From Streptomyces populi (lineage in GTDB: Bacteria > Actinomycetota > Actinomycetes > Streptomycetales > Streptomycetaceae): DNA of 64,000 nt. The stretch is taken from NCBI RefSeq assembly GCF_002911015.1, contig NZ_KZ626850.1:61042-125041 (forward strand), in the 5' to 3' direction. Made by a program: the position numbers and the translations under genes. This document shows, in pieces, positions 24,617-64,000 of the stretch (within the stretch, counting starts at the first letter, position 1; each line of letters starts with the position of its first letter). Below the pieces are notes generated by a model. The model searched no databases, was not told the DNA's origin, and saw only the letters and a list, made by a program, of their open reading frames with translations.

Positions 24617-24891
24617 CTTCGAGTGGCGCGTGCGGGTGTCGGGGGCGGCTGGTGCCCGTGTGGGCGAAGCCCCCCTCTCCTGACGGGCGGCGGGAGTCTT
24701 TCGTCAAGTGGGGTAAGGGGGTTGGCTCCGGAGGGGTGGAGGCTCAGGGGTGTCCCTCTGGTTTCCCTTGCCTCTGTGGACCTCGTGTGTTGACCCCGTC
24801 GTCGGTGCGCCGACCGTGCGCGTCATGCCGTCGGCGTTGGAGTGCGGGTGTTGATGGTGAAACTTGTAGCGTCCTGGCCGTAGACGTGCTC

Positions 24892-24935
24892 GCATTGCTC
24901 TGCAATATTGCGATGAAACAATGCAAGAAGCTGCG
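24892..24935. promoter_or_regulatory. Proximal TTGC repeat cluster (candidate operator)
   Basis: GCATTGC, TGCAATATTGCG and ATGCAAGAAGCTGCG are packed in 44 bases and share AATATTGCG with the upstream cluster. The site is followed by TATAAC at 24936-24941, a good -10 candidate. That would place a bound repressor across or just upstream of the promoter. Confidence 0.5.
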
Positions 24936-25074
24936 TATAACTCTCCGTCGGGAATCTTGCGTCCCGCGCGGACAGCTCTTGCCGATCTGTCGTACCGCGC
25001 CACCGCTCTGCCCAGGAACGAGCCGACCCCGCCGCCCCTCCGGCGCGCGAACCTCCGCAGGGAGTGAACCCCGC

Positions 25075-43355: not shown

Positions 43356-43495
43356 GTGGTGCAGGCCCTCCCCGATGTGCACTGGCTGTCCCCACAACCA
43401 GGTGTGACGAGATGACTTTATCCAGCAATGGCTGCCCCGCGCGGCCACCCGGCGACCACCGTCGGCCTCGTGCGGTCGATCGATAGGATCGGCGG

Positions 43496-48798: not shown

Positions 48799-50637
48799 CT
48801 ATCGCCCGTCGAGCGCCCTGTCGAGGGCGAGGGTCGCGTCGATGAGGGCGAGATGGGTGAACGCCTGCGGGAAGTTACCGAGTTGACGGCCCGTCAGGTC
48901 AACTTCTTCCGAGTACAGACCCAGGTGGTTGGCGTACCCCATCATCTTCTCGTACACCAGCCGTGCCTGGTCCGTCCGTCCCGCCCGGACGAGGGCGTCG
49001 ACGTACATGAACGTGCACAGCGAGAAGGTGCCCTCCGAGCCGCGCAGGCCGTCGGGCGACGCCTCCGGGTTGTAGCGGTAGACGAGGCTGTCGCTGACCA
49101 GCGCCCGCTCGATGGCGTCCAGGGTCGAGGCCCATATCGGATCGTCGGGGCTGAGGAACCCGACCGTCGCCATGCGCAGCAGCGAGGAGTCCAGTACGTC
49201 ACTGCCGTAGTGCTGGACGAAGGCCTGCTGTTCCTCGTTCCATCCCTTGGCCATGACCTGTTCGTAGACGGCGTCCCGTTCGGTCTGCCACCGTCCGTAC
49301 GCCGAAGGCCAGCCCTTCGACTCGGCGAGGCGCAGGGCGCGGTCGAACGCCACCCATGACATGACCCGGCCGTAGGTGAAGTCCTGGCGTCCTCCGCGGG
49401 TCTCCCAGATCCCCTCCTCCGGCTGGTCCCAGTGATCGGCCAGCCAGTCCAGGTTCTCCCGCATGGAGGTCCATCCAGCGTGCCCGATCTGGAACCCGTG
49501 CTGGTGCGCGAAGTGCATGCTGTCCAGCGCCTCGCCGTAGATGTCCAGTTGGAGCTGCGTCGCGGCGCCGTTGCCGATCCGTACCGGCGCGGAGCCCGCG
49601 TAGCCCTCCCAGTGGTCGAGGATCTGCTCGTCCAGGTCGGACGAGCCGTCGACCTTGTACATGACGTTGAGCGGGCCCGTGGTCCCGCTGTCGCCGGCCC
49701 GCTCCTTGACCCGGTCGCTCAGCCAGGCGATGAACGCCCCGGCCTCCTCGGTGAAGCCCAGCCCCAGCAGGGCGTACACGGAGAAGGAGGCGTCACGGAT
49801 CCAGGTGAAGCGGTAGTCCCAGTTGCGTTCGCCGCCCAGTTGCTCGGGGAGGGCCGTCGTCGGGGCGGCCACCAGGGCGCCGCTGGGCGCGAAGGTCATG
49901 AGCTTCAGCGTGATCGCCGAACGCTCCACCATCTCGCGCCAGCGCCCGGTGTAGCGCGACTGCGTCAGCCAGGTGCGCCAGAACGCCGTGGTCTGGTCGA
50001 AGAGTTGCTGGTACGCGTCCAGGCGGACCTCGGTGGGCGGACCCTCGGCGCCCATCTCCAGGATCACCCCGCGGTGCTGACCGGCCTGCAGCGTCACCGA
50101 CACGCTCAGGTCGCCGTCCTGGTTCGTGAGGACGTCGAGGAGCCGCTCGTCCTCAGGTTCACGGATGGGGTGCATGGTGAGCTCGGTGCCGTCCTCCGCG
50201 GCGAAGACCGCTCCGTGCTCGGTGATGTGCAACTCGTGCTTCGCGCGTCCGTAGTCGAACCGCGGGGCGATCTCGACCTGGAACGTCATGGTGCCGCGCA
50301 CGCAGCGCACCAGACGCACCAACCGGTGGCGGGGGGTGACCGTCGTACCGGTCACGGGCATGAAGTCGACCACCTCACCGGCGCCCGCCTCGGTCATGAA
50401 CCGGGTCACCAGGATCGCCGTGCCGGGCAGGTACAACTGCTTGGTCGCATGGGTCAGATGCGCCGGCTGGACCGTGCAGTGACCGCCCTTCTCCTTGTCC
50501 AGCAGGGCCCCGAAGACACTCGGTGAGTCGAACCGGGGGGAGCAGAACCAGTCGACCATGCCCTCGGTGGTCACCAGCGCCGCGGTCTGCAGATCGCCGA
50601 TGAGACCGTGGTTCTCGATCAGTGGGTAGCCGTCCAT
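48799..50637 (-). CDS. Glycoside hydrolase family 15 protein, second copy
   Basis: The 612-aa product starts at ATG 50637, chosen because AGGAG lies 7 bases upstream; an in-frame TTG at 50661 would place that site inside the gene. The N-terminal beta domain opens IENHGLIGDLQTAALVTTEG. The barrel has ERNWDYRFTWIRDASFS, first acid in EEGIWETRGG and second acid in GLYSEEVDLTGRQLGNFPQAF, which is the classical GH15 pattern and closer to trehalase/glucoamylase-like cytoplasmic actinobacterial members than the copy at 9844. It begins 20 bases after the NTPase stop on the same strand, so the two share a transcript. Confidence 0.9.
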   Translation of the reverse strand: MDGYPLIENHGLIGDLQTAALVTTEGMVDWFCSPRFDSPSVFGALLDKEKGGHCTVQPAHLTHATKQLYLPGTAILVTRFMTEAGAGEVVDFMPVTGTTVTPRHRLVRLVRCVRGTMTFQVEIAPRFDYGRAKHELHITEHGAVFAAEDGTELTMHPIREPEDERLLDVLTNQDGDLSVSVTLQAGQHRGVILEMGAEGPPTEVRLDAYQQLFDQTTAFWRTWLTQSRYTGRWREMVERSAITLKLMTFAPSGALVAAPTTALPEQLGGERNWDYRFTWIRDASFSVYALLGLGFTEEAGAFIAWLSDRVKERAGDSGTTGPLNVMYKVDGSSDLDEQILDHWEGYAGSAPVRIGNGAATQLQLDIYGEALDSMHFAHQHGFQIGHAGWTSMRENLDWLADHWDQPEEGIWETRGGRQDFTYGRVMSWVAFDRALRLAESKGWPSAYGRWQTERDAVYEQVMAKGWNEEQQAFVQHYGSDVLDSSLLRMATVGFLSPDDPIWASTLDAIERALVSDSLVYRYNPEASPDGLRGSEGTFSLCTFMYVDALVRAGRTDQARLVYEKMMGYANHLGLYSEEVDLTGRQLGNFPQAFTHLALIDATLALDRALDGR

Positions 50638-50657
50638 CGGAGCGCTCCTTTCGGTCG

Positions 50658-53600
50658 TCAAAGAAGGTGGTCGTCCTCATCGGTGGTCTTGCGGTTCCTG
50701 TTGGCCATCTCCTCCCAGAAGGCGTGCAACTCCCTGACGGGGACGCTGACCCATGGCGCGGTGTGCCGGCTGACGGCCGGCGGATGCCAGCGGAAGCGGC
50801 TGTGCAGGAGCGCCTGTTGCTGCCGGCAGAACAGCTCCGCCACCTCCGCCTGCGCGTTTCCGGTCTGGGGAGGATAGGGGCACAGACGGAACTCGCACGG
50901 GGACGTGCAGGTGGTGCGGGATTCGCCTTTGTCGGCCCGGCCGATACTGCGTTCGGGGTGGAGCAGGCTCCGGTCGTGGGTGAGGCAGTGCGGGAGGGCG
51001 GCCCTGTTCGAGAGCTTCAGACGTTCCTCGATGTCGTCCGGACCCCCTTTGCCCTCGGTGAGGTTGAGCAGGACCATGACGTCGGCGAGAAGACGCTGTG
51101 CCCGGGGGTGCAGGCTGCTCCAGCCGACGGACGGGGAGATCCACAGGTTGTGCTTGCGGTAGCGGTCCGGATCGGCCGGGGTGGAACCGACGCTGTTGCT
51201 GATCTCGTTCTCGTCGATCCAGATGAACCGCTCGGGGTGTCCCGTCTCCAGGGCCAGGGTCACCAGATCGCCGGCTTCGGCGATGAACGGGTGGAGGACC
51301 TTCTCGCCGTGGCGCCGGTACGCGGCGCCGATGTGGGCAGGGGTCTTCTCGTGCGCGCTGCCGGCCATCGCCAGCCAGCGGGTGACCGACTTTATGGGCT
51401 CCGTGGGACTGCCGGACGCCACCTCGTCGCCCTTCGTGAGGCTGGTGGCCGGTGGCGTGGAACGGCTCCGTCGGTTCGTCGTGCCGGACCCGGGAGCGCG
51501 TCCGACGGTGTCGGGAAGCTCCCACAGGCACAGCGCCTGAAGAAGGCTCAGTTGCGCGTACCAGTAGCGGCTGCAGGTGAGCATCTTCTCCGCCTGGGCC
51601 ACCAGGTGGGCCCGGGTCTCCTCGTAGGCCTCCGGGTGCCGTCTCCTGCGGTTCGCCGCGTTCTTGAAGCCCTCGGCCAGAGCGTTCTCCAAGGAGAGCG
51701 GCATGGGCGGGCTCTGCTGTCCGGGCTGGGGGGCCAGGTTGCGCAACCAGATGCTCAGCCGTTCCTTGGCCTCGTCGCGGTACTTCTCGGAGACGGACCC
51801 GACGACCATGGGAACGAGCCAGGCCCGGAGGGTGAAGTGGCGCCACCACGTGGTCCGGCTCTGCTCGTACTCCCTCACGATCCAGTCGTGCTCCCGCTGC
51901 CTCTTCTCCGCCGCCTCCGGACCGGCGGCAGGGTCCGGATCCTCCTCGTTGAGCCAGGCGGTGTAGTCGCGGTCGAGTTTCTGTTTGGCGTCACGGATCT
52001 TTCCCAGGTACTGGGATATGGGATCGGAGCCGATGGGGAATTCCGCGCGCAGTTCCTGGAAGGCCGCGTCGCCACCGGCGGCGATCTGATGGGCGATCGC
52101 GATCCGGACCGTGTGGGAGGGCTCGTGCGTGCCGATCTGGAAGAGGTGCTTGTAGGGAAGGGCCGGGCGCGCGGGATCCTGTTCCGGACACCCTGAGGAG
52201 GGACGGCTCGCCTTGCTGCGGCGGTCCCGTTCACGCAGAGCGGCTCCGAAGTTCCGCACCAGCCTCAGCTTCGCGCTCTCGATGGTCCGCTGATCGCCTC
52301 TGATGTCGAGACCCGCCCATTGTTCATCGAGCTCATGGGCCAGCTTGTCCTGTATCGGCACCGGATCGACACAGTCGATTTCCATGGCCGCGGCGTAGAG
52401 GTCGAAGTACTTCGCGTCATGCCGGGCCGCCGCGGCGTTGCTGAGCAGCTCGGCCAGTTTCGGCGACGTTCCATGACGGTTCCGGGCACGATGAGCGGTG
52501 CGCGACGTGTCGGCCGGCCGGCGGGTGAGGGGAGCCGCCCGGTGGCGTGAGAGCAGCACCAGGGCGATGAGCAGTTCCCGCGACGGACCCGGGCTGTGCA
52601 GCGCCGGCTCGACGACCGTGGCGATCTTGTCGTCCGGCAATTCTCTCAGCAGGCGATAGCCCATGTAGGCCTGGAGAATGCTGTGCGGGAACCGGACCTT
52701 GTTCTTGCGGCCGTACACCAGTCCGAGGAGCTGGCCGTTGGCGGTGTGCCTCGCCAATTCCGTCCGGCATTCGTTGGGGTAATCCAGGGTGTTGAGCCAG
52801 GAGGCCGACCCGCTGATCTTCCGGCACATCACACCCCAGATCGCGTCGCGCTGCGCCGGGGAAATGGAGAGGCGAGTTCCGTACTGTTGGGCGGTGTCCG
52901 GTGATTCCTGCCGATTTCCCTGGGATTGCGCGCGTACGCGAAGGTCGTTCGCATGTGCGCTGACGAAATCGTCGAACGTGACCTCGATGCTGTCCTGCAG
53001 AAGTCCCAGGCAGGCCATGGCCGACACGACCCACATGCTCTCCCGGCGCTCCTCGCGGCCCATCACCAGGTCGTCGAATACGCGCCCGTCCTCGATGGCC
53101 TGGCGATAGGTGTTGAGGAATCCGAGCCGGAGAGTGGAGCAGTCGTTGCTCCGGGTGTCCAGACGGTCCTTCTCTCCGCGGAGGGTGAGGTGGTCCAGCA
53201 GTCCGCACTGCTGCAGCAGACGGGCGATCCGCAGATAGATCGGCGATTCCACGACCTTGGCGGTCTCCACCACCCAGTCGAGGCGGCGCTCGTCCAGCTC
53301 GCCCTGTTCCCCCACCAGGTATTCCAGGGCCGCCTCCTCGCTCAGCGGTTCCATGTCGGCGATCGCCGCCCGGGTGCCCTCCAGCGGTGTGTGCGGGCGC
53401 GAGGCGATGACCAGGGGCAGCCTCTGGCGGTCCGCCCGCTCTATCGCCCGCCGGATGATGTTGTCGCGGTCCTCCTGGTACTTCTCGTCGAGGAGGGCCT
53501 CTTCCAGGCCGTCGGCGATGACGACGACCTTGCCGTCGAGTCTGAGCTGCCGCCACGTCTTGTCGATGTTGCTGCCGGCCAGCACCCCCTGGTCCGCTTC

Positions 53601-54344
53601 CTCCGCGAAGCGGCGCCGCGCCATTTCCTCGAAATCGAGCTCACCGTCGCCTTTCATGTCGCGCAGACTTATGGGCACGGGAACGGCGGACTGCTGTGCC
53701 AGCATTCGGGTGAGTTCCACCAGTACGGCTGTCTTTCCGACGCCCACACCACCGACGAGCAGATAGGGCTTCCGGGTTTTCCGGTTGCGGAGGGTCTGGG
53801 CGATCACCTGGGAAAGTTCACGGCGCCCGACGATCCGGTTGCCGAAGGTTCCGCCCGTGGAGACCAGCTCGTGCGGACGTGTGCGCGCCTTGTCGACGAG
53901 CGGCTTCTTGGTCTTGTGATACCAGTAGAGAAGGAAGAACGTCAGGATCAGGGAACCGGTCAGGACGGGGCCGACGATATGGGAAACGGCGTCGAGCCAC
54001 AGGGATTCCAGTACCTTGTGGAGCTGTGAATCCTTGAGCTGCTCTTCCGTTTCGTGACTGGTCTTCTGGAAATCGTAGACGAGCAGCCCCACCCAGACGA
54101 GAAGAACAATCGTCCCGAGAAAAGCGTATACGCGCAGCAACGGCCCGAGGGAGAACCAGCCGGGGCGCCAGCTGCGTGCCGCGGCGATGCTCCTGTGCGC
54201 TTCCCTCTTCGTCCTGAAAGCGCGCCATTCCTTGCGTGTCGCCCCGGAGAACCGGGACCACCACCGCCGCGGGTACAGCGTGTACCACGGCGCGTCGTGC
54301 GGCCGTTCCCTGCCTTCCGGACGGCGGATCACCTTGGTGGGCAT
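50658..54344 (-). CDS. Membrane-anchored NACHT/STAND-like NTPase with large helical C-terminus
   Basis: The 1,228-aa product starts at ATG 54344. A basic, Trp-rich N-terminus is followed by two membrane helices (about 68-90 and 121-142) with a short loop between. The NTPase has P-loop LLVGGVGVGKTA (G198-T205), Walker B VVVIADGLEEAL (D278) in the DGL-[DE]E form of NACHT ATPases, and ASRPHTPLEG near 315 as sensor 1. From about 400 the chain is helical, without recognisable TPR/WD/LRR repeats, and carries scattered Cys (CTSPCEFRLCPY near 1165). STAND NTPases act as signal-triggered switches in defence or death. No effector domain is recognised. The base composition has more A/T-rich patches than its neighbours. 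Confidence 0.82.
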   Translation of the reverse strand: MPTKVIRRPEGRERPHDAPWYTLYPRRWWSRFSGATRKEWRAFRTKREAHRSIAAARSWRPGWFSLGPLLRVYAFLGTIVLLVWVGLLVYDFQKTSHETEEQLKDSQLHKVLESLWLDAVSHIVGPVLTGSLILTFFLLYWYHKTKKPLVDKARTRPHELVSTGGTFGNRIVGRRELSQVIAQTLRNRKTRKPYLLVGGVGVGKTAVLVELTRMLAQQSAVPVPISLRDMKGDGELDFEEMARRRFAEEADQGVLAGSNIDKTWRQLRLDGKVVVIADGLEEALLDEKYQEDRDNIIRRAIERADRQRLPLVIASRPHTPLEGTRAAIADMEPLSEEAALEYLVGEQGELDERRLDWVVETAKVVESPIYLRIARLLQQCGLLDHLTLRGEKDRLDTRSNDCSTLRLGFLNTYRQAIEDGRVFDDLVMGREERRESMWVVSAMACLGLLQDSIEVTFDDFVSAHANDLRVRAQSQGNRQESPDTAQQYGTRLSISPAQRDAIWGVMCRKISGSASWLNTLDYPNECRTELARHTANGQLLGLVYGRKNKVRFPHSILQAYMGYRLLRELPDDKIATVVEPALHSPGPSRELLIALVLLSRHRAAPLTRRPADTSRTAHRARNRHGTSPKLAELLSNAAAARHDAKYFDLYAAAMEIDCVDPVPIQDKLAHELDEQWAGLDIRGDQRTIESAKLRLVRNFGAALRERDRRSKASRPSSGCPEQDPARPALPYKHLFQIGTHEPSHTVRIAIAHQIAAGGDAAFQELRAEFPIGSDPISQYLGKIRDAKQKLDRDYTAWLNEEDPDPAAGPEAAEKRQREHDWIVREYEQSRTTWWRHFTLRAWLVPMVVGSVSEKYRDEAKERLSIWLRNLAPQPGQQSPPMPLSLENALAEGFKNAANRRRRHPEAYEETRAHLVAQAEKMLTCSRYWYAQLSLLQALCLWELPDTVGRAPGSGTTNRRSRSTPPATSLTKGDEVASGSPTEPIKSVTRWLAMAGSAHEKTPAHIGAAYRRHGEKVLHPFIAEAGDLVTLALETGHPERFIWIDENEISNSVGSTPADPDRYRKHNLWISPSVGWSSLHPRAQRLLADVMVLLNLTEGKGGPDDIEERLKLSNRAALPHCLTHDRSLLHPERSIGRADKGESRTTCTSPCEFRLCPYPPQTGNAQAEVAELFCRQQQALLHSRFRWHPPAVSRHTAPWVSVPVRELHAFWEEMANRNRKTTDEDDHLL

Positions 54345-54385
54345 GAGGAGGTTCCCTCCGTGCTGCACATCGCTGAGGGACACGT

Positions 54386-54415
54386 CATACGGGCGCCGGA
54401 TGGGGAGACATACGG
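54386..54415. promoter_or_regulatory. CATACGG direct repeats upstream of the NTPase
   Basis: TCATACGG ends at 54392 and ACATACGG ends at 54415, so the 7-mer repeats with a 23-base period, about two helical turns. The pair sits 42-71 bases before the minus-strand NTPase start, where a -35/-10 region is expected. It could be an activator or repressor site. Confidence 0.4.
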
Positions 54416-55067
54416 AAACCCGTGACCCGTGCGGGTGGCACCACGCATCACCTGCGCGTGCTCCGCCCCGCACCGCCGCAGCGCCGCCCCGCACGGGGCG
54501 GCTGCCTCGCGAATATTCCTATGGCACGCATGCCTTCATTTCCATGAAAGCACTGGTGGGGAAGATCGCAACACGGCCCGCGGACCGGTCGCCGGAGGCC
54601 TCCCGGGCGGCCGGGGGAGTGGGCGAGGATCCTCTCCGGGCAGGGGCGCGATCCACCGGTGGGCCGACGGCGGCCGGCCCTTCCGCGGCGCGGCGCGAAA
54701 AGGCCATTTCCCGGGGCCGGTCGCGCAGTTGACCGGCGAAGACCGGCTGAACACCTTTGAGCTCCTGCCGGTCGGCGGCCGTGGTGGACTTCCAACGGAC
54801 CGGTGGCGCGGCCGTATTGCGCGTACGGGAGGCGAGGGACGTCCGTGCCGACCGGCTCCGGCGTCCAGGAAACTGTGTGCGTAAAAGGTTTCCTGAGGCT
54901 CCTTCAGATGGCTCCGTCCCGTCCGCCGGCAGAGCGCGGCGGGGGGAACGCGCCCCGGCAAATTCAGCGATCTTGGGGGTACCCGCGTATCGTTGCTGGC
55001 GCGGCAGTGGATTGTGCGCCGCGCACCAGCAGCGACACCAACGCGCAGCTCGACCATCGAAGTTGCC

Positions 55068-55313: not shown

Positions 55314-57242
55314 ATGTACGCGAAGTTTCCCAAGGGGGCGGCGCACCGCACCGACCCCGGGGCGGCGGCCGAGGTCCTCTACGACGCCGTCGTCGTCGGC
55401 GGCGGGATCTCCGGCGCTCTGGTCGCCCTGCGGCTGAGCGAAGCCGGCAGGAAGGTGCTGCTGCTCGAAGCGGGCCCGGCCGAAGACCTCACGCTCAGGG
55501 GCTACGAACGCTATCTCGACCGGTTCTACTCGGCCATCAGCAAGGACAACCAGGCCCCCTACCCGGCCGTCGCCAACGCCCCGATGCCCCGCGGCACCGA
55601 CGCGCGGCGCATCACCCCGGGCGCGCCCGACGCCTCGTCCTACATCGTCCAGAGCGGGCCCTTCGCCACCGACACCACCTACACGCGCGTCCTCGGCGGC
55701 ACCACCATGCACTGGGAGGGCAAGGCGCTGCGGATGCTGCCCGAGGACTTCCGGATGCGGACGCTCTATGGCGAGGGGGCGGACTGGCCGCTCACCTACG
55801 AGGACCTCGCCCCGTACTACAGCGAGGCCGAACGCGAGATCGGCGTCTCCGCCGACGTGGAGGACCAGGCCTACCTCGGGATCGGCTTCGACGAGGACTA
55901 CGTCTTCCCCATGAAGGGGCTGCCCCTGTCCTACCTGGACCGGACGGTCGCCAAGGACGTCGACGGGATGCCGGTCGACCTCGACGGGGAGCACCGGGAG
56001 CTGCGGGTCCGGCCGTTCCCGCAGGGCCGGAACGGCATACCGAACCCGGCCTACGACGGCGGACGGGGATATGTGCCGCGCGGGGCGGTGAGCGCGTACC
56101 AGGTCGAGGTCGGCGAGCGGTGCCAGGGCAACAACAACTGCGTGCCCATCTGCCCGGTGCAGGCCAAGTACAACGCCGGCAAGACCCTGGCCCTGGCCCT
56201 CCAGAGCGGCCGGGTCGACCTGGTGGCACAGGCGGTGGCCCACAAGGTGCACGTCGACGAGAGCACGGGCCGGGTGACCGAGATCGAGTACCGCCGCTAC
56301 GACCGGCCCGACAGCCCCGGCCACACCACGATGAGAGCCCGCGGCCGGCTGTTCGTCCTGGCCGCCAACGCGGTGGAGAACCCCCGGCTGATGCTGGCCT
56401 CCGGCCTGCGCGGTTCGAGCGGCCTGATGGGGCGGAACTTCATGGACCACGCCTATCTGCTCGCGTGGGCCCTGCTGCCGGAGGTGGCCGGCACCTTCCG
56501 CGGCACGATCTGCACGGGCGGCATCACCGACCTGCGCGGGGGCCGCTTCCGCAGCCGCCAGGCGGCGTTCACCGTCGACATCCACAACGACGGCTGGGGC
56601 TGGGCCCGGGGCGCGCCGATGACCGACCTGATCGGCCTGGTGGACTCCGGTGGCCGCTACGGCGAGTCCCTCCGCCAGGGCCTGGTGGACCGGGTGTCCC
56701 GCCAACTGCAGCTGGCGTTCATGGTCGAGGTCCCCGCCGACCCGAGCAACCGGGTCACCGTGAGCCCGGACTTCACCGACGAGCTGGGCAACATGCGGCC
56801 CGTTCTCAGCTACAACGTCCCCGAGTACACCATGCGGGGCGTGGCGTACGCCCGGCAGCTGTCGAGACGGATCTTCGCCCGGCTGGGGGCCGAGGACCAC
56901 ACCGCGTACGACCCGGAGTTCTGGGGCTACGCCGTTCACGACGGCGAGGGGTACGAGATCCGCGGGGGCAACCACCTCGCCGGCACCCACGTGATGGGCC
57001 GCGAACCGTCGACCTCGGTGGTCGACGCGGACCAGCGGTGCTGGGACCACGAGAACCTCTACATGGTAGGCGGCGGAAGCATGCCCACCGTGGGCACCTC
57101 GAACGTGACGCTCACCCTCGCCGCCCTGTGTCTGCGCAGCGTCCGGGCCATGCTGGCCCAGCTCGACTCCGAGACCGCACCGATCGAGGTCACCACCGGC
57201 CGGGACCAGGCGGCGACCACCTCTGGGGAGACGGCACCATGA
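55314..57242 (+). CDS. GMC-family FAD-dependent sugar/cyclitol dehydrogenase, large subunit
   Basis: The 642-aa product starts at ATG 55314 behind GGAGGAG. The ADP-binding motif VVVGGGISGALVALRLSEAG is at about 26-45 and an acidic LLEAGP follows. The middle has a four-Cys-like segment QGNNNCVPICPVQAKYNAG near 276, as in gluconate/sorbitol-type GMC dehydrogenases. The C-terminus has GGNHLAGTHVMG (active-site His near 559) and VGGGSMPTVGTSNVTLT, the conserved GMC ending. It should oxidise an alcohol of a sugar or cyclitol to a ketone using FAD. Its stop overlaps the next start (ATGA). It is the first gene of a seven-gene unit, and partner subunits appear to be the next two genes. Confidence 0.88.
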   Translation: MYAKFPKGAAHRTDPGAAAEVLYDAVVVGGGISGALVALRLSEAGRKVLLLEAGPAEDLTLRGYERYLDRFYSAISKDNQAPYPAVANAPMPRGTDARRITPGAPDASSYIVQSGPFATDTTYTRVLGGTTMHWEGKALRMLPEDFRMRTLYGEGADWPLTYEDLAPYYSEAEREIGVSADVEDQAYLGIGFDEDYVFPMKGLPLSYLDRTVAKDVDGMPVDLDGEHRELRVRPFPQGRNGIPNPAYDGGRGYVPRGAVSAYQVEVGERCQGNNNCVPICPVQAKYNAGKTLALALQSGRVDLVAQAVAHKVHVDESTGRVTEIEYRRYDRPDSPGHTTMRARGRLFVLAANAVENPRLMLASGLRGSSGLMGRNFMDHAYLLAWALLPEVAGTFRGTICTGGITDLRGGRFRSRQAAFTVDIHNDGWGWARGAPMTDLIGLVDSGGRYGESLRQGLVDRVSRQLQLAFMVEVPADPSNRVTVSPDFTDELGNMRPVLSYNVPEYTMRGVAYARQLSRRIFARLGAEDHTAYDPEFWGYAVHDGEGYEIRGGNHLAGTHVMGREPSTSVVDADQRCWDHENLYMVGGGSMPTVGTSNVTLTLAALCLRSVRAMLAQLDSETAPIEVTTGRDQAATTSGETAP

Positions 57243-58360
57243 TCGCGTCGACCATCGAGAACCGTGACGACCTGGTCAGCTACCTGAACGCGGCGATGTC
57301 GCTCGAGCACGCGACCATCCCGCCGTACCTGACCGCGTACTACTCCATACACTCCGGCACCAACTCCGACGCCGCCCACATCATCCGGGTGACCGCGGTG
57401 GAGGAGATGCTGCACCTGACCCTCGCCGCCAACGTCCTGAACGCCATCGGCGGGAAGCCGGACCTGACCCGCCCGGGCTTCGTGCCGTCCTATCCGGCCT
57501 ATCTGCCGGACGGGGAGGACGACTTCACCGTCGACCTGCGGCCCTTCTCCCCCGAGGCGGTGGAGACGTTCTGCAAGATCGAGCGGCCGGGCAAGGCCCC
57601 CAGCGCCGACTCGCGGCTGGTGGAGACACCGGACAGCAGGACCCACTTCCTGGTCTCCAGCCCCACGGCCGAGAAGATGCGCTTCTACAGCATCGGCGAA
57701 TTCTACGAGGAGATCATCGAAGGGCTCGAGAAGGTGGCGGCCAACGACCCCGCGCTCTTCCACGGGGACCCGGCCCGTCAGGTGGGGCCCGAGTACTTCT
57801 ACTCCGGTGGCGGGGCGATCACCGTCGTCACCGACCTGCAATCGGCCCAGCAGGCACTCCGGTTCATCGCCGGCCAGGGCGAGGGCCTCGACTCCGGCAT
57901 CTACGACGCCGACGGGGAGCTGGCCCACTACTACCGGTTCCGGCAGTTGCAGCTCGGGCGTTACTACCAGGTGGGAGACCGTCCCGACGCGCCTTCGGGG
58001 CCTTCGCTGAGCATCTCCTGGGACGAGGTGCACAAGGTGAAGGTGAGCGTCCGGCTGGCCGATTATCCGGCGGGATCGGAACTCGCCCGTGTCGCAAGGG
58101 ACTTCAACGCCGACTACGGGGCGTTCCTCGCCCTGCTCACGAAGGCGTTCGACGGCCGGCCGGACCTCCTGCAAGAGGGTGTCTGCGAGATGTTCCGCCT
58201 GCGCGACGGGTTCAACCGGCTGGTGTGCAACCCCCTGCCGGGGAGCGGGGGCCTGCACGCCGGCCCCACCTTCGAGATTCCGGCCGGGGCCGGGCCCGAT
58301 CCGGGGGTCTCACCCGACGCCGGGGCGACCGACGAGACAGCCCGGACGGTGACACGATGA
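57239..58360 (+). CDS. Ferritin-like (VioB N-terminal-type) protein
   Basis: The 373-aa product overlaps the GMC stop by 4 bases. The first 60 residues carry the family core: LNAAMSLEHATIPPYLTAYY (E23, H24) and VTAVEEMLHLTLAANVL (E55, E56, H59). More possible ligands lie in GEFYEEIIEGLE and ELAHYYRFRQL. This matches the ferritin-like domain of the VioB/iminophenylpyruvate dimer synthase family (PF12902 as I recall). It may hold a di-iron or heme site, or simply be a structural subunit. It overlaps the next gene by 4 bases, so stoichiometric production with the dehydrogenase is likely. The function here is unknown. Confidence 0.82.
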   Translation: MIASTIENRDDLVSYLNAAMSLEHATIPPYLTAYYSIHSGTNSDAAHIIRVTAVEEMLHLTLAANVLNAIGGKPDLTRPGFVPSYPAYLPDGEDDFTVDLRPFSPEAVETFCKIERPGKAPSADSRLVETPDSRTHFLVSSPTAEKMRFYSIGEFYEEIIEGLEKVAANDPALFHGDPARQVGPEYFYSGGGAITVVTDLQSAQQALRFIAGQGEGLDSGIYDADGELAHYYRFRQLQLGRYYQVGDRPDAPSGPSLSISWDEVHKVKVSVRLADYPAGSELARVARDFNADYGAFLALLTKAFDGRPDLLQEGVCEMFRLRDGFNRLVCNPLPGSGGLHAGPTFEIPAGAGPDPGVSPDAGATDETARTVTR

Positions 58361-58881
58361 CCGCCCCGTCGTTCGAGAAGTTCCTCTCCCTGTCGGTCGA
58401 CCTCACCGCCTTCGAGGAGACCGATCTGCTCGGCACCGGCATGGCCCACGCATACCTGGCGAAAGTGCGGGCCGCCTGCGGCGACGAGGTCGTCACCGAC
58501 CTCCTGGACGCCCACCGGGCGGCCCGGGCCGACGCGGCCGGTGGTACCGGAAGCCACGCCCGGACCCCGCTCGACCGGGATCTGTTCGACCGGGCCCTGC
58601 GTCACCGGATCCTCAGTGACGACCGGCTCGGCCCGGTGGCCCGCAACGTGATCAAGCTCTGGTACGCCGGGATGTGGTACGCGCTGCCGCCCGAGTGGAC
58701 CGACCGCCACGGGGCCCGGACGGCGGCCGAAACCTCCACGGTCACCGCCGCGGCCTATCAGGAAGGGCTGCTGTGGCGGGCCATCGGGGCCAATCCTCCA
58801 GGTGCCAAGGCCCCCGGATACGGCTCCTGGGCCGAGCCGCCCCGCATCGCGGACCGCTACCTGAAGGGAGCGACGAGATGA
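58357..58881 (+). CDS. Probable dehydrogenase small subunit (sorbitol/gluconate-dehydrogenase subunit-like)
   Basis: The 174-aa product overlaps the preceding stop by 4 bases. It reads FEKFLSLSVDLTAFEETDL near the start, then LARRNVIKLWYAGMWY-type text (ARNVIKLWYAGMWYALPPEW near 93-112) and a C-terminal YGSWAEPP. The FLxLSxxLT opening plus a central LWYxG are typical of the small subunit of membrane FAD sugar dehydrogenases. No Tat signal is present, unlike many of those subunits, so the complex may be cytoplasmic. The assignment rests on pattern and context. Confidence 0.65.
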   Translation: MTAPSFEKFLSLSVDLTAFEETDLLGTGMAHAYLAKVRAACGDEVVTDLLDAHRAARADAAGGTGSHARTPLDRDLFDRALRHRILSDDRLGPVARNVIKLWYAGMWYALPPEWTDRHGARTAAETSTVTAAAYQEGLLWRAIGANPPGAKAPGYGSWAEPPRIADRYLKGATR

Positions 58882-59792
58882 CGGCCACACTCCACCGTCT
58901 CAGTCCGGACAAGGTGAAGCTCGGCGTCTGCTGCACCCTGTGGTGGAACGACGACTTCCCCTCCATCGACGCCGGCATCTCCTTCGGCCAGGCGGTGAGC
59001 GACATGGCGCTCGCCGGCTTCCAGGGGTGCAGCATCGGGCACAAGTACCCCTCGGACGCCGCCGAGCTCAAAGCCGCACTCGATCTGCGCGGTCTGAGCG
59101 TGTCCGAGCCCTGGACGAGCACGTACTTCACGGTCGGCAGAATGCGGGAGAAGACGATCGCCGCGTTCGAGGAGACGCTGTCCCACATCAAGGCCCTGAG
59201 CGGGACCGAGCTGGTCGTGGCCGAGTTCGGGGCCTCGTCTCACCTGCTTCCCGTGGACGTGTTCGCCAATCGCCCCGTCTTCACCGATTCCCAGTGGGAC
59301 GCCCTGACATCGGGCCTGCACGAGCTCGGCGGGATCGCCCGTTCGGCCGGGATGAAGCTCAGCTATCACCACCACATGGGCACCGGCGTGATGACCCGGG
59401 CCGACGTCGACCGGCTGATGGCCTCGACCGATCCGGAGCTGGTCCACCTGCTGCTCGACACCGGCCACATCGCCTTCGCCGGCGACGATCCGCTGGAGCT
59501 GGTCCAAGCCCACGCCGACCGCATCGGCCACGTCCACCTGAAGAGCGTGCGGCCCGAGGTCGTGAGCCGGGTGCGGGAACAGGGCCTGTCGTTCCAGGAG
59601 GGCATCCAGCTCGGTGTCTTCACCGTGCCCGGAGACGGCGGGATCGACTTCCGGCCCATCCTCGAAGCGCTGGCCGCCGCGCATTACGAGGGGTGGCTGG
59701 TCGTGGAGGCGGAGCAGGATCCGAACAAGGCCGTCCCGCTCGAATACGCCAAGAAGGCCCGCGCCTACCTCGCCGACATCCTGGGCTGGTGA
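58878..59792 (+). CDS. IolE-like inosose dehydratase (TIM barrel)
   Basis: The 304-aa product overlaps the upstream stop by 4 bases. It opens VKLGVCCTLWWNDDFPSID, and has GFQGCSIGHKYP, then KLSYHHHMGTGVMTRADVD (Y163-T169), LLLDTGHIAFAG (D194, H197), IGHVHLKSVRP, GVFTVPGDGGIDF and WLVVEAEQDPNKAVPLEYA. These stretches match, nearly in order, those I know from myo-inosose-2 dehydratase (IolE), including the metal-ligand pattern E/D/H/E. The family converts 2-keto-myo-inositol to a trihydroxycyclohexane-dione. Length is normal. IolG, IolB, IolC and IolD of the standard pathway are not present nearby. Confidence 0.82.
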   Translation: MTATLHRLSPDKVKLGVCCTLWWNDDFPSIDAGISFGQAVSDMALAGFQGCSIGHKYPSDAAELKAALDLRGLSVSEPWTSTYFTVGRMREKTIAAFEETLSHIKALSGTELVVAEFGASSHLLPVDVFANRPVFTDSQWDALTSGLHELGGIARSAGMKLSYHHHMGTGVMTRADVDRLMASTDPELVHLLLDTGHIAFAGDDPLELVQAHADRIGHVHLKSVRPEVVSRVREQGLSFQEGIQLGVFTVPGDGGIDFRPILEALAAAHYEGWLVVEAEQDPNKAVPLEYAKKARAYLADILGW

Positions 59793-59794
59793 CC

Positions 59795-60790
59795 ATGAAC
59801 GCGAAACTCGGACGAGACGTCTTCTTCAGCTTCTTCATGTTCACGGCTGATCTGCGGCCGCAGGACGCACGGTACGGCCGGGTACTGATCGATCACCTCA
59901 AGGCCCTGACCGACATGGGCTACGACGGTTTCGACGTGCACATCGCCGCTCGACCCACGACCGTCGACCACAAGCTCGAGGTCGACCATTACGTCGGCCT
60001 GAAGAAGGTGTTCGAGCAGGCGGGGCTCGGGGAGGTGAAGTTCACCACCAACGTCGGGACCACGCGCACCTTCGACCCGACCTCGCCCTACGAGGAACAG
60101 CGCGGGCAGGCCCTGTCCTACCTCAAGTCCCGCGTCGACATCACCCACGTCCTGGGCGGCGACTCGATCATGTCCGGGCCGTTCATCTACCCCTACGGGG
60201 TCTTCCCGGTCACGGACACCGACGAGCCGATCTGGAGCGACGCCCTGCAGGACTGGATGAAACCGCGCTACGACGCGGCGCGTTCCGTCTTCGAGGAGTT
60301 GCTGGAGTACGCCGCGGCGCGCGAGGTGAAACTCGCCGTCGAGCCCGTCAAGAGCTGGGAGACCCCGCCGCCCAACATGGTCTCGGAGGTGCTGGACTTC
60401 CTCGAGGGCCTCGAGCACCCGCAGGGCGGCGTGACGGTCGACACGGCGCAGGTCGTGATGGAGAGCCAGGGCCCGTCGGTCCTCAAGGAGAACGTCGCGC
60501 GAGCGGTACGGCAGGACCGGCTCTACTACGTCCACATCTCCGCGCCCGACCGGGGGGCGGTGAAGGACAGCTGGATCCCGTGGGACGTCGTCTCGAACGA
60601 GATCGAGCCGGTGTACGACGGGCCGTACCTGATCGAAGTGTTCAACGCGATCCCGCCGTTCGACAGTTCCATGCGCATGGCGCGCCGGCGTTTCTGGCGG
60701 CCCGGCGAGGACGACCCGGTGCCCGGCGGGGACAGCGCCTACGACGTCGCGAGGGCCGCGTTGGAGGAGCTGGGAGAGCGGATCACGTAA
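59795..60790 (+). CDS. Sugar phosphate isomerase/epimerase-like TIM-barrel protein
   Basis: The 331-aa product starts at ATG 59795, two bases after the previous stop. It has ALTDMGYDGFDVHIAARP near 37-54, an active-site Glu in LAVEPVKSWETPPPN (E183), then GGVTVDTAQVVMES (Asp near 217), YYVHISAPDRG (His near 246) and PYLIEVFNAIPPFD (Glu near 280). These are the four metal ligands of the xylose-isomerase-like/ketose-3-epimerase fold, also shared by subunits of C-glycoside-cleaving enzymes. It probably epimerises or cleaves a keto sugar or cyclitol produced upstream. Which reaction is undecided. Confidence 0.82.
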   Translation: MNAKLGRDVFFSFFMFTADLRPQDARYGRVLIDHLKALTDMGYDGFDVHIAARPTTVDHKLEVDHYVGLKKVFEQAGLGEVKFTTNVGTTRTFDPTSPYEEQRGQALSYLKSRVDITHVLGGDSIMSGPFIYPYGVFPVTDTDEPIWSDALQDWMKPRYDAARSVFEELLEYAAAREVKLAVEPVKSWETPPPNMVSEVLDFLEGLEHPQGGVTVDTAQVVMESQGPSVLKENVARAVRQDRLYYVHISAPDRGAVKDSWIPWDVVSNEIEPVYDGPYLIEVFNAIPPFDSSMRMARRRFWRPGEDDPVPGGDSAYDVARAALEELGERIT

Positions 60791-60809
60791 TCTCGGAGAG
60801 GGGACTCCC

Positions 60810-61637
60810 ATGCTGGCCCAGGTGTCAGATCCCATCGTCATGGTCGTGAAGCAGACGGGCGACGTCCGTATTCACACCTTCGTCGCGTCCTTCGCGGCCG
60901 GCAACATCGCGAACGCCACGCACATCGTCGAAACCAAGAACCAACTGGTTCTGGTGGACGGGCAGTTCCTCGCCCCCTACGCGAGGGCGTTCAGGGACTA
61001 CGCGGACAGCCTGGGCAAACCGATCGAGAGGCTGTACGTCTCCCACCGGCACCCCGACCACTGGTTCGGACTGGGGACCGCGTTCGCCGACGTCACCGTT
61101 CACGCGCTGTCCGAGACCATGACCTTCATCCACGACCACGGTGAGGACTCCAGGAGCGACCACTGGAAACTCGGCGACCTCCTCCCGGAGCGCGTGGTCG
61201 TTCCCGAACAGGCCGTCGACCCCGGTGAGGAGAAGATCGACGGGGTCAGGTACGTCTTCGACCGGGTGACGGACACGGAGATCGACTACCACCTCACCAT
61301 CAGGCTTCCCGAGTTGGGCGTGTACTTCACCCAGGACCTGATCTACAGCGGCACCCATCTGTACCTGACGAAACACCTGGACCACTGGACCCGGGTACTG
61401 CGGGAGATGCTGCTGTCGGACTACGAGCTGTTCATGCCGGGCCACGGCCTGCCGGCCGACAAGAACGAGGTCGCGCGCAACATCGAGTACCTGTCCGCCG
61501 CGCGGGAGGCGATCGGTGACGGGCTGACGGGCGACGCCTTCAAGGCTTTCATGCTGCAGCGCTATCCGGAACGCAGGTGCCCGGGGATCTTCGACATCTA
61601 CATGCCCCGGCTGTTCGGCGGCGCGAGCGACTACTGA
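60810..61637 (+). CDS. Metallo-beta-lactamase-fold hydrolase
   Basis: The 275-aa product starts at ATG 60810 behind GAGAGGG. The zinc motif HxHxDH appears as SHRHPDHWFG (H79, H81, D83, H84). The fold continues with VDGQFLAP (Asp before the first strand-loop), a long IDYHLTIRLPELGVYFTQDL and MPGHGLPADKN (His near 214), completing the metal site. Substrates of this superfamily include lactones, thioesters and beta-diketones. Within the operon it may hydrolyse a cyclic dione or lactone. A cytoplasmic location is inferred because there is no signal peptide. Confidence 0.85.
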   Translation: MLAQVSDPIVMVVKQTGDVRIHTFVASFAAGNIANATHIVETKNQLVLVDGQFLAPYARAFRDYADSLGKPIERLYVSHRHPDHWFGLGTAFADVTVHALSETMTFIHDHGEDSRSDHWKLGDLLPERVVVPEQAVDPGEEKIDGVRYVFDRVTDTEIDYHLTIRLPELGVYFTQDLIYSGTHLYLTKHLDHWTRVLREMLLSDYELFMPGHGLPADKNEVARNIEYLSAAREAIGDGLTGDAFKAFMLQRYPERRCPGIFDIYMPRLFGGASDY

Positions 61638-61658
61638 CCACGGAGAGGCGCTTCAATC

Positions 61659-63314
61659 ATGAGCGAGAGCTGCACAGTAGGGCGGTACCTGGTGGACCGG
61701 CTCCGTCAACTGGGCCTGGAGCACCTGTTCGCCATCGCGGGCGACTATTCCATCGAATGGCTGAACCGGTACGTCGCACCGAGCGGCACGAAGATCATCG
61801 AGGAAGTCAACGAGGTGAACGCCGGTTACGCGGCGGACGGATACGCGAGGATGAAGGGGATCGGCGCCCTCTGCGTCACCTACTCCGCGGGGGCGCTGTG
61901 CGCCGTGAACGCCGTCGCCGGCGCCTACGTCGAGAAGGTGCCGCTCGTGCTGATCAACGGCACGCCGAGCGTGAAGAAGACCATCGTCTTCGAGCAGACC
62001 GGCTTCAGCGCGCATCACTTCATCAGCGGACGCGAAACGGATCTCCAGTCGTTCGAGCACCTGACGGTGGCGGCCGTACGGATCGACAATCCGGACCTCG
62101 CGCCGGCGCTGATAGATCACGCGCTGACCCGGTGCATAAGCGAGCGGCGTCCGATCTACATCGAACTGCTCCAGGACATGGTCGACTTGGAGTGCGAGCC
62201 GCCGAGGGGCGTTCTGAAGCCGGCCAGGATCCTGTCGGACGAGACCAGCCTGGAGCAGTCGGTCGCGCGGATCTGCGCGAAGCTCGAGAGCGCCGAGAAC
62301 CCCCTCGTCTGGCTCGGCGTGGAGATCGACCGCCTCGGCCTTCAGGACAAGGCCCTGAGCCTGATCCAGCAACTCAACGTCCCGTTCGTCACGGAACTCC
62401 TCAGCAAGGCCGTCCTCTCCGAGGACGACCCGCTGTTCGTCGGCGTGCTCGACGGCCAGGCGTCGTCGACGGTCGTGACGGACCTGGCCCGCACGTCCGA
62501 CTTCGTACTGGCCCTCGGCGTGTGGCTGACGGACATCAACTCGCTGGGCTGGGACCCGGACTACGACAAGACCGCGTTCGCGTCGTTCGACGCGGTCAAG
62601 TTCGGGACCTTCTTCGGCGGACAGGTCGCCCTGGAGCACCTGATCGACGGCATCCTGGCGGAAGAGATCGCGCCCAAGGAGCGGAAACTTCCGGAGATCC
62701 CGGCCCGCGGCGTGCCGACCGTGAGCGACACCGACGTCATCACGTATCAGGGGTTCTACGACTACGTCCAGCAGTACGTCGACAGGAACACCATCGTCGG
62801 CGCCGACGCGAGCATGAACTACTTCGGGAGCCTGCTGCTCGACGTGCCCAGCCCGGGAGGGTTCGTCGTCCAGTCGTCCTATTCGGCGATCGGCTACAGC
62901 GCACCGGCCGCGACGGGCATCTGCCTCGCGAAGGGGCCCGGGCAGAGGGTACTGGTCTTCTCGGGTGACGGCGGCTTCCAGATGACCGCCCAGTGCCTCT
63001 CGACGCAGACCCGGCTGGGGCTCGATCCGATCGTCTTCGTCATCGACAACGGCGTCTACGCCGTGGAGCAGTGGCTCGCCGACGCGGGGGTGTTCCACTC
63101 CGACGAGCCGTTCTACAAGCCCTGCGAGCTGCACCGGTGGAACTACAGTGCTCTGGCGGACGTCTTCGGCTGCCGCGGGTGGGAAGTCGGCACGTACGGC
63201 GAACTGGGGGACGCCGTGACGGGCGCACTGGAGAACTCGAGCGGTCCGTCCGTCATCCAGGTGCGGGTGCCGCAGAAGACGATCCCCGACAACGCGAGGT
63301 GGAAGGCCCATTAG
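61659..63314 (+). CDS. Pyruvate-decarboxylase-family ThDP enzyme
   Basis: The 551-aa product starts at ATG 61659 behind GGAGAGG. The opening TVGRYLVDRLRQLGLEHLFA is typical of pyruvate/indolepyruvate decarboxylases. The ThDP-activating Glu lies in NEVNAGYAADGYAR (E52), the HH motif in GFSAHHFISG (H119, H120), and the ThDP/Mg motif in GDGGFQMT (G436-T443) followed by DNGVYAVEQ. These conserved residues favour 2-oxo-acid decarboxylation. A C-C cleavage of a cyclic dione, as done by IolD or cyclohexanedione hydrolase (both ThDP enzymes), is another possibility given the IolE-like gene in the operon. It is the last gene of the run. Confidence 0.85.
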   Translation: MSESCTVGRYLVDRLRQLGLEHLFAIAGDYSIEWLNRYVAPSGTKIIEEVNEVNAGYAADGYARMKGIGALCVTYSAGALCAVNAVAGAYVEKVPLVLINGTPSVKKTIVFEQTGFSAHHFISGRETDLQSFEHLTVAAVRIDNPDLAPALIDHALTRCISERRPIYIELLQDMVDLECEPPRGVLKPARILSDETSLEQSVARICAKLESAENPLVWLGVEIDRLGLQDKALSLIQQLNVPFVTELLSKAVLSEDDPLFVGVLDGQASSTVVTDLARTSDFVLALGVWLTDINSLGWDPDYDKTAFASFDAVKFGTFFGGQVALEHLIDGILAEEIAPKERKLPEIPARGVPTVSDTDVITYQGFYDYVQQYVDRNTIVGADASMNYFGSLLLDVPSPGGFVVQSSYSAIGYSAPAATGICLAKGPGQRVLVFSGDGGFQMTAQCLSTQTRLGLDPIVFVIDNGVYAVEQWLADAGVFHSDEPFYKPCELHRWNYSALADVFGCRGWEVGTYGELGDAVTGALENSSGPSVIQVRVPQKTIPDNARWKAH

Positions 63315-63350: not shown

Positions 63351-64000
63351 TCAGCCGTTCTCGGACCGTACGGGCGCGGGCGCGTCGTCGGAACCGTCCG
63401 CCTTCCGACGCACCGCCACCGTCCCGGACCGCGGCACGGCGGGTTCGGGCAGGGTGCGGAAGAGCCACCAGCTCAGGGCGGGCATCAGAACGAGCGGTGC
63501 CAGAGCGGTGCGCAGCGACGTGGCGTCGGCGACCCCGCCGATGAGCGGGCTGACCAGACCACCGATGCTGACGGTCAGGCCGAGGGTGATTCCGCCGGCG
63601 GTGCCGACCCGGGTGGGCAGGTAGTCCTGCCCGAGCGTGACCTGGAGCGAGAACGGGACGTAGAGGCCGGCCGAGGTCAGCGCGACGAACGGGTACAGCG
63701 CCTGGCCGGGCGCGAGCACGACCCCCGCGACGGAGCCGACGGTGACCAGGTACGACCAGCGGGAGACGGTGACCCGGTCCCAGCGGTCGGCCAGCCGGCC
63801 GCCGAGTACGGAGCCCACCGCGCCGCCGGCGTAGAGGACGAACAGCGCCGCGGTGCCCGCCGCCGTGCTGCCGCCGTTGCGCTCCTGCGCGTACAGCGAG
63901 ATGAAGCTGCTCAGGCCGACGAAGACGATCGACCGGCAGACCACGGCGAGCGACAGCCTCACGAACGACGGCCGGTCGTCGCGGCCGACGGTCACGGCCG
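63351..64000 (-). CDS. MFS transporter, N-terminus beyond window
   Basis: 216 codons of the C-terminal part are visible on the minus strand, open at base 64000. Around six hydrophobic segments are present, with loop text GGRLADRWDRVTVSR matching the MFS motif and ALYPFVALTSAGLYVPFSLQV near the middle. It ends with a basic/acidic cytoplasmic tail. It resembles fosmidomycin-resistance-type (Fsr) transporters. It converges on the ThDP gene with 36 bases between the stops, so it is not in the operon but may serve its substrate or product. Confidence 0.82.
   Translation of the reverse strand, partial: AVTVGRDDRPSFVRLSLAVVCRSIVFVGLSSFISLYAQERNGGSTAAGTAALFVLYAGGAVGSVLGGRLADRWDRVTVSRWSYLVTVGSVAGVVLAPGQALYPFVALTSAGLYVPFSLQVTLGQDYLPTRVGTAGGITLGLTVSIGGLVSPLIGGVADATSLRTALAPLVLMPALSWWLFRTLPEPAVPRSGTVAVRRKADGSDDAPAPVRSENG

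Follow-up and report, generated by a model that had tools for sequence, protein, structure and literature searches.

A conserved seven-gene operon of Streptomyces populi combines a putative flavin-dependent sugar dehydrogenase with an IolE-type dehydratase and may encode a keto-sugar pathway

A stretch of 64,000 nucleotides from Streptomyces populi was analysed (positions 61,042 to 125,041 of contig NZ_KZ626850.1; hereafter the window), and this report concerns seven genes at its end, positions 55314-63314, which are named A to G in the order of transcription. They form a real operon, which is undescribed as far as literature searches reach. Our favoured reading, to which we give somewhat less than even confidence, is that this conserved operon encodes a cytoplasmic keto-sugar pathway on glucose, in which an oxidation of the ring and then a dehydration by protein D would be followed by isomerisation, hydrolysis and decarboxylation. 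No description of the gene combination was found in the open-licence PubMed Central (PMC) literature; the 2002 account by Wisniewski-Dye, who reportedly described the raiIR locus that neighbours the operon in rhizobia, may already mention adjacent genes. An earlier note on this DNA had proposed an undescribed pathway, and the same literature yielded no described pathway with this gene set. Open frames and sequence placed all seven genes on the forward strand:

A, 55314-57242, plus strand: GMC flavoprotein with Pfam domains PF05199 and PF00732
B, 57239-58360, plus strand: ferritin-like protein, PF12902 (219.5 bits)
C, 58357-58881, plus strand: putative small (gamma) subunit of the flavin adenine dinucleotide (FAD)-dependent glucose/fructose/sorbitol dehydrogenase type; no Pfam match
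D, 58878-59792, plus strand: IolE-type TIM-barrel dehydratase, PF01261
E, 59795-60790, plus strand: xylose-isomerase-like TIM barrel, PF01261
F, 60810-61637, plus strand: metallo-beta-lactamase-fold hydrolase, PF00753
G, 61659-63314, plus strand: thiamine diphosphate (ThDP)-dependent 2-oxo-acid decarboxylase of the pyruvate decarboxylase (PDC)/indolepyruvate decarboxylase type; three ThDP Pfam domains

The junctions A/B, B/C and C/D are overlaps of four bases each (ATGA), and D/E, E/F and F/G are separated by 2, 19 and 21 bases, respectively. The coupled layout that the earlier note had described was therefore exact to the base, and its view of a single conserved, translationally coupled unit is supported. 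In agreement with the note, families of the IolG, IolB, IolC and IolJ types were absent from the Pfam and NCBIfam rows shown for the seven genes.

Conservation of the operon and its linkage to a GH15 gene

With B alone as query, 73 loci from many species were retrieved and up to 10 kb were fetched on each side. A and D were present in the stretch in 37 of the 73, and thus the linkage is above chance. These 37 loci, 13 plasmid loci and the window were compared (51 loci in total); L061, in which A lies off the contig and G is cut by the contig edge, was left out. The fetched loci had been found with B, D or E, and thus the evidence free of such selection is the occurrence of A, C, F, G and the GH15 gene described below. 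The earlier note had suggested a neighbourhood search for co-occurring GMC, ferritin-like, IolE-like and PDC-like genes. A, B, C and D were found in all 51 loci and E in 49, while F and G were present together in 31 (both broken in L146), absent together in 20, and never present singly. The genes are adjacent in most loci; other genes are interposed in L065, L078, L079, L080 and L155.

A gene of the glycoside hydrolase family 15 (GH15, glucoamylase family) was found in the same stretch in 37 of the 51 loci, namely the 36 of the intact count plus the broken pieces of L146; the gene is also broken in L154. The 37 comprise 20 loci of the actinobacterial type, one each of Frankiales, Vibrio, Aquimarina, Methylovulum and Gloeothece, and 12 of rhizobia or Agrobacterium. 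The motif WEE was kept in all 34 sequences compared and LSEQF in 32 of them. The Methylovulum protein consists of Glucodextran_N, GH15 and a starch-binding CBM20 domain; of the Gloeothece protein the Glucodextran_N part was read, and its record is named glucan 1,4-alpha-glucosidase. The linkage points to an alpha-glucoside or glucose as the substrate. The earlier note had offered a glycoside oxidised at C3 as its alternative; the nature of the substrate is brought nearer to this by GH15, with C3 as a putative position of the oxidation.

Several forms of the locus can be distinguished. Eight Streptomyces and Saccharothrix loci (L066, L067, L069-L072, L074, L085) represent an A-B-C-D(-E) subtype. 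A second form, found in Frankiales (L065) and in rhizobia/Agrobacterium (L149, L150, L152, L154), has GH15 accompanied by genes for a lipocalin-like protein, for a further dehydrogenase pair and for a heme-binding-like protein (about 300 residues); F and G are absent from all five loci, and some genes are broken in L154. A third form, in Methylovulum (L077), Pseudanabaena (L078, L079), Richelia (L080) and Gloeothece (L155), adds a SnoaL-like protein, a DyP-like peroxidase and a galactose/glyoxal-oxidase-like protein; the Pseudanabaena loci also have a multicopper oxidase. A, B and C without D occur in the Streptomyces loci L068 and L073 and in further loci, e.g. L081-L083 and L086-L090, which indicates that the dehydrogenase and its ferritin-like partner are a module of their own. 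B was searched for in 150 genomes selected for their kinship to the host, which was itself among them, and had a match in 39; apart from the host's own, identities were at most 61% (a partial match), and the best near-full-length match reached 47%. Close homologues occur in many other Streptomyces, and thus the cluster is patchy.

Some neighbours of the operon in the window were also recorded. The end of the window is the end of the contig, which cuts an MFS transporter gene (63351-64000, minus strand) convergent with G. Divergently upstream of A (48799-54494, minus strand) lie a GH15/trehalase-like gene (TREH_N) and a gene for a 1278-residue protein with weak AAA/NACHT matches, and both also occur near the cluster in L043, L044, L046 and L058. 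The former (48799-50661, 5 kb upstream of A on the opposite strand) is one of two GH15/trehalase-like genes of the window, the other being 9844-11619; a substitution for the GH15 gene is not indicated. Further away, a 1565-residue protein that combines catalytic domains of alpha-1,3-glucanase with three stretches of F5/8 type C (24652-29349, plus strand) and a 717-residue fusion of an Mrr-type restriction endonuclease domain with a TerD domain (41295-43448, minus strand) are encoded.

The dehydrogenase, its ferritin-like partner and the downstream enzymes

The assignment of A and C as dehydrogenase subunits is among the strongest results, together with the GH15 linkage and the adjacency to raiIR. 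As judged from alignments (6a2u, 4.5e-73; 7w2j, 5.5e-67), A is homologous to the alpha subunit of FAD glucose/fructose dehydrogenases, which is the catalytic one, and its nearest solved homologue is an FAD glucose dehydrogenase. C270, C276 and C280 align with the Fe-S cysteines (CX5CX3C), H554 and N597 represent the His/Asn pair, and all five residues are kept in 51 of 51 loci. C matches the gamma-subunit fold of the same complex, with moderate Z and a high root-mean-square deviation in a second-look aligner. A flavin dehydrogenase of the GMC/small-subunit type as the likely first step, as the earlier note had assumed, is thus supported.

The dehydrogenase is likely to be cytoplasmic. With a simple pattern (first 45 residues for C) and no signal-peptide predictor, a motif resembling a twin-arginine translocation (TAT) signal was found in none of 51 A, 54 B and 52 C sequences. 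The C alignment had 34 rows, drawn from 33 loci, besides the window. C begins at the point from which the small subunits are resolved in the structures, residues 2-4 of its model being aligned with chain residues 47-52. Q271 of A, a glutamine in all 51 loci, aligns with Cys213 of the Burkholderia cepacia glucose dehydrogenase, which is the disulfide cysteine of that exported enzyme (PMC9727119). According to Pfam, none of the seven operon genes encodes a cytochrome domain; the genome elsewhere was not searched.

B has a ferritin-like fold (PF12902) with conserved candidate Glu/His metal ligands, and proteins of S. populi and S. triticiradicis share 96% identity with it. E23, E56, H59, E115, E215 and H230 are invariant in all 41 aligned homologues, and these residues form a predicted di-metal site. 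The alignment holds 29 rows taken from 28 of the 73 loci, together with 11 database proteins and the protein of the window; L067 and L109 had been removed because of a stop codon. B shares the Pfam domain with VioB, but it scored only 18.6 of 1250 bits on the VioB equivalog model and is a separate protein encoded between dehydrogenase subunits.

E is related to the Anabaena structure 2qw5 (3.4e-101), which has no assigned function, and remotely to ketose 3-epimerases; it may be an isomerase, an epimerase or a lyase. In F, the sequence HRHPDH (79-84; motif HxHxDH) and H212 are conserved in 30 full-length sequences; no PDB match was found for F, which would be a lactonase or another hydrolase. 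G is assigned as a PDC-type ThDP 2-oxo-acid decarboxylase with a full catalytic set: D29, E52, H119-H120, GDG436-438 and E470, with roles assigned by analogy with the Zymomonas PDC, were each kept in no fewer than 30 of the 31 rows compared. These rows are 30 G proteins of the cluster plus a second ThDP protein encoded in the window (6896-8719). L061 and the pieces of L146 were not included in the counts for F and G. An identity of G with IolD was rejected (82 bits on TIGR04377, cut-off 715). A small protein of about 102 residues without a Pfam match is encoded directly 3' of G in nine actinobacterial loci (L100, 16065-16373, and eight others), and had no match in the window.

Adjacency to raiR-raiI on rhizobial plasmids

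On plasmids of Rhizobium phaseoli, R. etli, R. leguminosarum and relatives the gene order is raiR, raiI (leftward), a small helix-turn-helix (HTH) gene, GH15 and A to G. A query of 12.2 kb from raiR to G yielded 148 records, 80 of them with at least 80% of the query covered; all 60 records listed were covered to 99-100% and started within 14 bases of the raiR end. In some of the records genes are broken or an insertion is present (L146; CP140860). The operon thus lies beside raiR-raiI in at least 60 plasmid records of rhizobia, and these are close kin and not independent. In R. etli CFN42 the stretch between raiR and G is found on record NC_007766.1, at 95.2% to the query. RaiI was found with at least 80% identity in 97 records; of the 60 RaiI records listed, 58 recur in the list of 60 operon records, the exceptions being CP050553 and CP053206. 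The plasmid of L170, a locus with raiR, raiI and the HTH gene, also carries nod genes. In two loci of the second form, another synthase of the LuxI type is encoded upstream (L154, annotated as acyl-homoserine lactone synthase, 38% identity to RaiI; L152, 28%, partial).

This adjacency makes the operon a candidate target of RaiR in rhizobia. One of 12 upstream stretches contained a near-perfect palindrome of 18 bases. Short palindromes were noticed by eye upstream of the rhizobial GH15 gene (TTGACCTGAGGTCAA at about 8280 of L151 and TCGACCTAGGTCGA at about 3720 of L145), and these palindromes could be a site for the HTH protein or another regulator.

According to PMC4149787, the genes regulated by RaiI/RaiR were "not identified" as of 2014. 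According to PMC5977203, by 2018 the Rai system of R. leguminosarum bv. viciae had no known phenotype besides its own signal, and nodulation or nitrogen fixation was altered in raiI or raiR mutants of R. etli. A raiR deletion was reported for R. etli CFN42 (PMC13295618). A context named AA in PMC13133039 contains raiI/raiR with dadR and comprises 51 plasmids; the words glucoamylase, glycoside hydrolase, GMC and inosose do not occur in the main text of that paper.

The substrate, a possible pathway and its meaning

The identity of D is central to any pathway. With 351.9 bits on the NCBIfam model TIGR04379 for myo-inosose-2 dehydratase (curated cut-off 290) and with the residues common to other IolE proteins, D is an IolE-type dehydratase, as the earlier note had proposed. 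It is 46% identical to the IolE of a full iol operon (L147), and its PDB matches include 3cny with 261 bits and the 2-hydroxy-3-keto-glucal hydratase 8ro4 with 28 bits; it is also distantly similar to the 3-keto-glucoside 4-epimerase 6wn6. Among the 120 best homologues listed, cluster D is called myo-inosose-2 dehydratase or inosose dehydratase wherever the source gives a name. A tree was built from 38 sequences. One of its branches (SH-aLRT 99; the tree is unrooted and has several long branches) separates 27 cluster D proteins from eight other IolE proteins, and three further IolE-like rows belong to no group. Five of the eight other IolE genes stand beside iolD (L147, L148, L163, L164, L165), two have Gfo/Idh or iolG neighbours and no iolD in the stretch (L160, L162), and one is unannotated (L161).

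The likely substrate is not inositol but glucose that is released from sugars of the starch type. As inverting enzymes, members of GH15 set beta-glucose free, and in this sugar, as in scyllo-inosose, all substituents are equatorial; beta-glucopyranose with a keto group at C2 or C3 is thus nearly isosteric with the substrate of IolE. The equatorial hydroxyl groups shared by 3-keto-beta-glucose and scyllo-inosose would explain the presence of an IolE-type enzyme. In other systems, TIM barrels of the IolE fold act on 3-keto-glucosides (structures 8ro4 and 6wn6; PMC10628242). In the proposed pathway, the GH15 enzyme encoded nearby in most relatives would free beta-glucose, and the dehydrogenase (A and C, with B) would oxidise a ring hydroxyl, most likely at C3 or C2. 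The electrons would leave via the Fe-S cluster to B or another acceptor, B being a putative electron acceptor or oxidase for A. As IolE does with inosose, D would then remove the beta-hydroxyl from the ketone to yield a deoxy-dicarbonyl; E would isomerise this product, F could open a lactone or a similar compound, and G would decarboxylate a 2-oxo acid. The pathway chemistry is inferred throughout, and so are the cytoplasmic location, glucose as the substrate, the carbon at which it is oxidised (C2 or C3), the succession of the steps, the role of B and the control by RaiR.

As an alternative, A might oxidise C3 of an intact glycoside, whereupon one TIM barrel would eliminate the aglycone and the other would hydrate the keto-glucal. 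A precedent is the Agrobacterium GlycDH operon with two sugar-phosphate-isomerase-like enzymes (PMC10628242). Two PF01261 proteins beside an oxidoreductase and the distant likeness of D to 8ro4 and 6wn6 would fit. However, the GH15 enzyme would already hydrolyse the glycoside, F and G would be left without a role, and D is far nearer to IolE than to 8ro4; we therefore regard this alternative as unlikely.

The earlier note had favoured a cyclitol, i.e. that the flavin complex replaces IolG on an inositol, that D makes the diketone, and that E, F and G replace IolD, IolB, IolC and IolJ. The TIGR04379 score, the shared IolE residues and the identity to the L147 protein speak for it, but the cyclitol was not borne out by the other evidence, and we give this route a small probability only. 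The operon lacks iolB, iolC, iolD and iolG, G is not IolD, and the GH15 linkage has no known role in inositol breakdown. Moreover, the host has a separate iol locus (contig C119, 17709-23597) with IolD (875 bits), IolB (271 bits) and IolC (377 bits), all above the cut-offs, and an IolE-like gene with 130 bits on TIGR04379. The pattern is similar in other cluster genomes, and the low scores of the IolE-like genes in iol loci are a likely source of misannotation. IolD was above the cut-off in 24 of 32 cluster genomes. In 19 of these a further IolE-like gene, below the cut-off, shares a contig with an IolD match and is no more than about 10 kb away from it (the IolD match is split in G164), and in five it lies on a different contig (G152, G155, G156, G170, G174). 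In the other eight genomes (those of L047, L052, L065, L075, L076, L077, L078 and L080), D is kept without an IolD match above the cut-off and is the sole match of IolE grade, the next having at most 57 bits. The genome G158 had three matches above the TIGR04379 cut-off, and L051 and L071 are two cluster loci of that strain. The earlier note had held that homologous clusters with full iol loci elsewhere and a different known product would speak against its proposal: such iol loci exist, and no product is known for the cluster. Inositol is thus an unlikely substrate.

An oxidation of glucose at C1 to the lactone, with F as the lactonase and D, E and G turning the aldonate into a C5 product, has a similarly low probability, because IolE-type dehydration needs a ketone beside the lost hydroxyl and D is kept in the 20 loci without F and G, even if the closest solved homologue of A is an FAD glucose dehydrogenase and F is a metallo-hydrolase.

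A wider reading goes beyond the keto-sugar pathway on glucose and is put forward tentatively, as rather improbable in its entirety. In place of a cytochrome, a di-iron subunit of the ferritin fold would receive the electrons of a cytoplasmic Fe-S flavin sugar dehydrogenase, and this dehydrogenase would open an undescribed route from glucose to a small molecule; in rhizobia, this route would be the long-missing output of RaiI/RaiR and one of several interchangeable payloads behind raiR, raiI and the HTH gene.

Several observations weigh against the keto-sugar reading or against control by RaiR. D exceeds the cut-off for myo-inosose-2 dehydratase, and only 14 positions separate cluster D from other IolE proteins. 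E is only remotely related to characterised enzymes, and the fold match of C has the moderate Z and high deviation given above. In the stretches read, no GH15 gene was seen in 14 of the 51 loci: it is missing next to the cluster in the window, L043 and L058, and was seen neither in L078-L080 nor in the eight loci of the A-B-C-D(-E) subtype. The latter also lack F and G, so that GH15, F and G are not essential to the core. The host genome had no match to the actinobacterial GH15, in a search without a positive control, in which an empty answer shows little. A query from raiR to A, with 60 spread rows, gave 29 rows that span it, 11 with the raiR-raiI-HTH side only, 10 with the GH15-A side only and 10 fragments. 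The raiR-raiI-HTH genes are followed by another payload in L169 (12001-16222), L170 (11990-16216) and L171 (11999-16256), where short hypothetical genes (two annotated in L169, three each in L170 and L171) take the place of the operon. The dad genes upstream and the idonate dehydrogenase and TRAP genes downstream in L171 resemble the surroundings of the operon in L159, and thus the payload seems to have been swapped at a single site. The fetched stretches of L145, L156 and L158 (Sinorhizobium) and L157 (R. etli 8C-3) gave no match to raiI or raiR.

The operon shares features with known systems and differs from each. With the iol operon (IolG, IolE, IolD, IolB, IolC, IolJ) it has in common an IolE-type dehydratase after an oxidation and a ThDP enzyme downstream. 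In contrast, it is devoid of IolG, IolB, IolC, IolD and IolJ and has the FAD/Fe-S dehydrogenase with the ferritin-like partner, the PDC-like G, the GH15 linkage and a D on its own side of the tree. The Fe-S cysteines, the His/Asn pair and the small-subunit fold are those of the FAD glucose dehydrogenase (alpha-beta-gamma in B. cepacia) and of fructose dehydrogenase. Unlike in these enzymes, a TAT-like motif is lacking from A, B and C, the cysteine of the inter-subunit disulfide is replaced by glutamine, the operon has no counterpart of the triheme cytochrome c subunit, and a PF12902 ferritin-like protein is encoded between the two subunits. Ring oxidation is shared with the 3-keto-glycoside pathways, i.e. 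the Agrobacterium GlycDH operon, in which two sugar-phosphate-isomerase-like enzymes follow as well, and Caulobacter LacABC with DUF1080; in the cluster, a GH15 hydrolase takes the place of the eliminase or of the DUF1080 protein, and F and G have no counterpart in the descriptions read.

Taken together, a gene set that is present in four phyla becomes testable, and RaiI/RaiR gains a concrete candidate target operon in R. etli CFN42. B may be a new electron partner for the well-known family of biosensor enzymes. If the keto-sugar reading is true, the name myo-inosose-2 dehydratase would be wrong for the clade of cluster D proteins.

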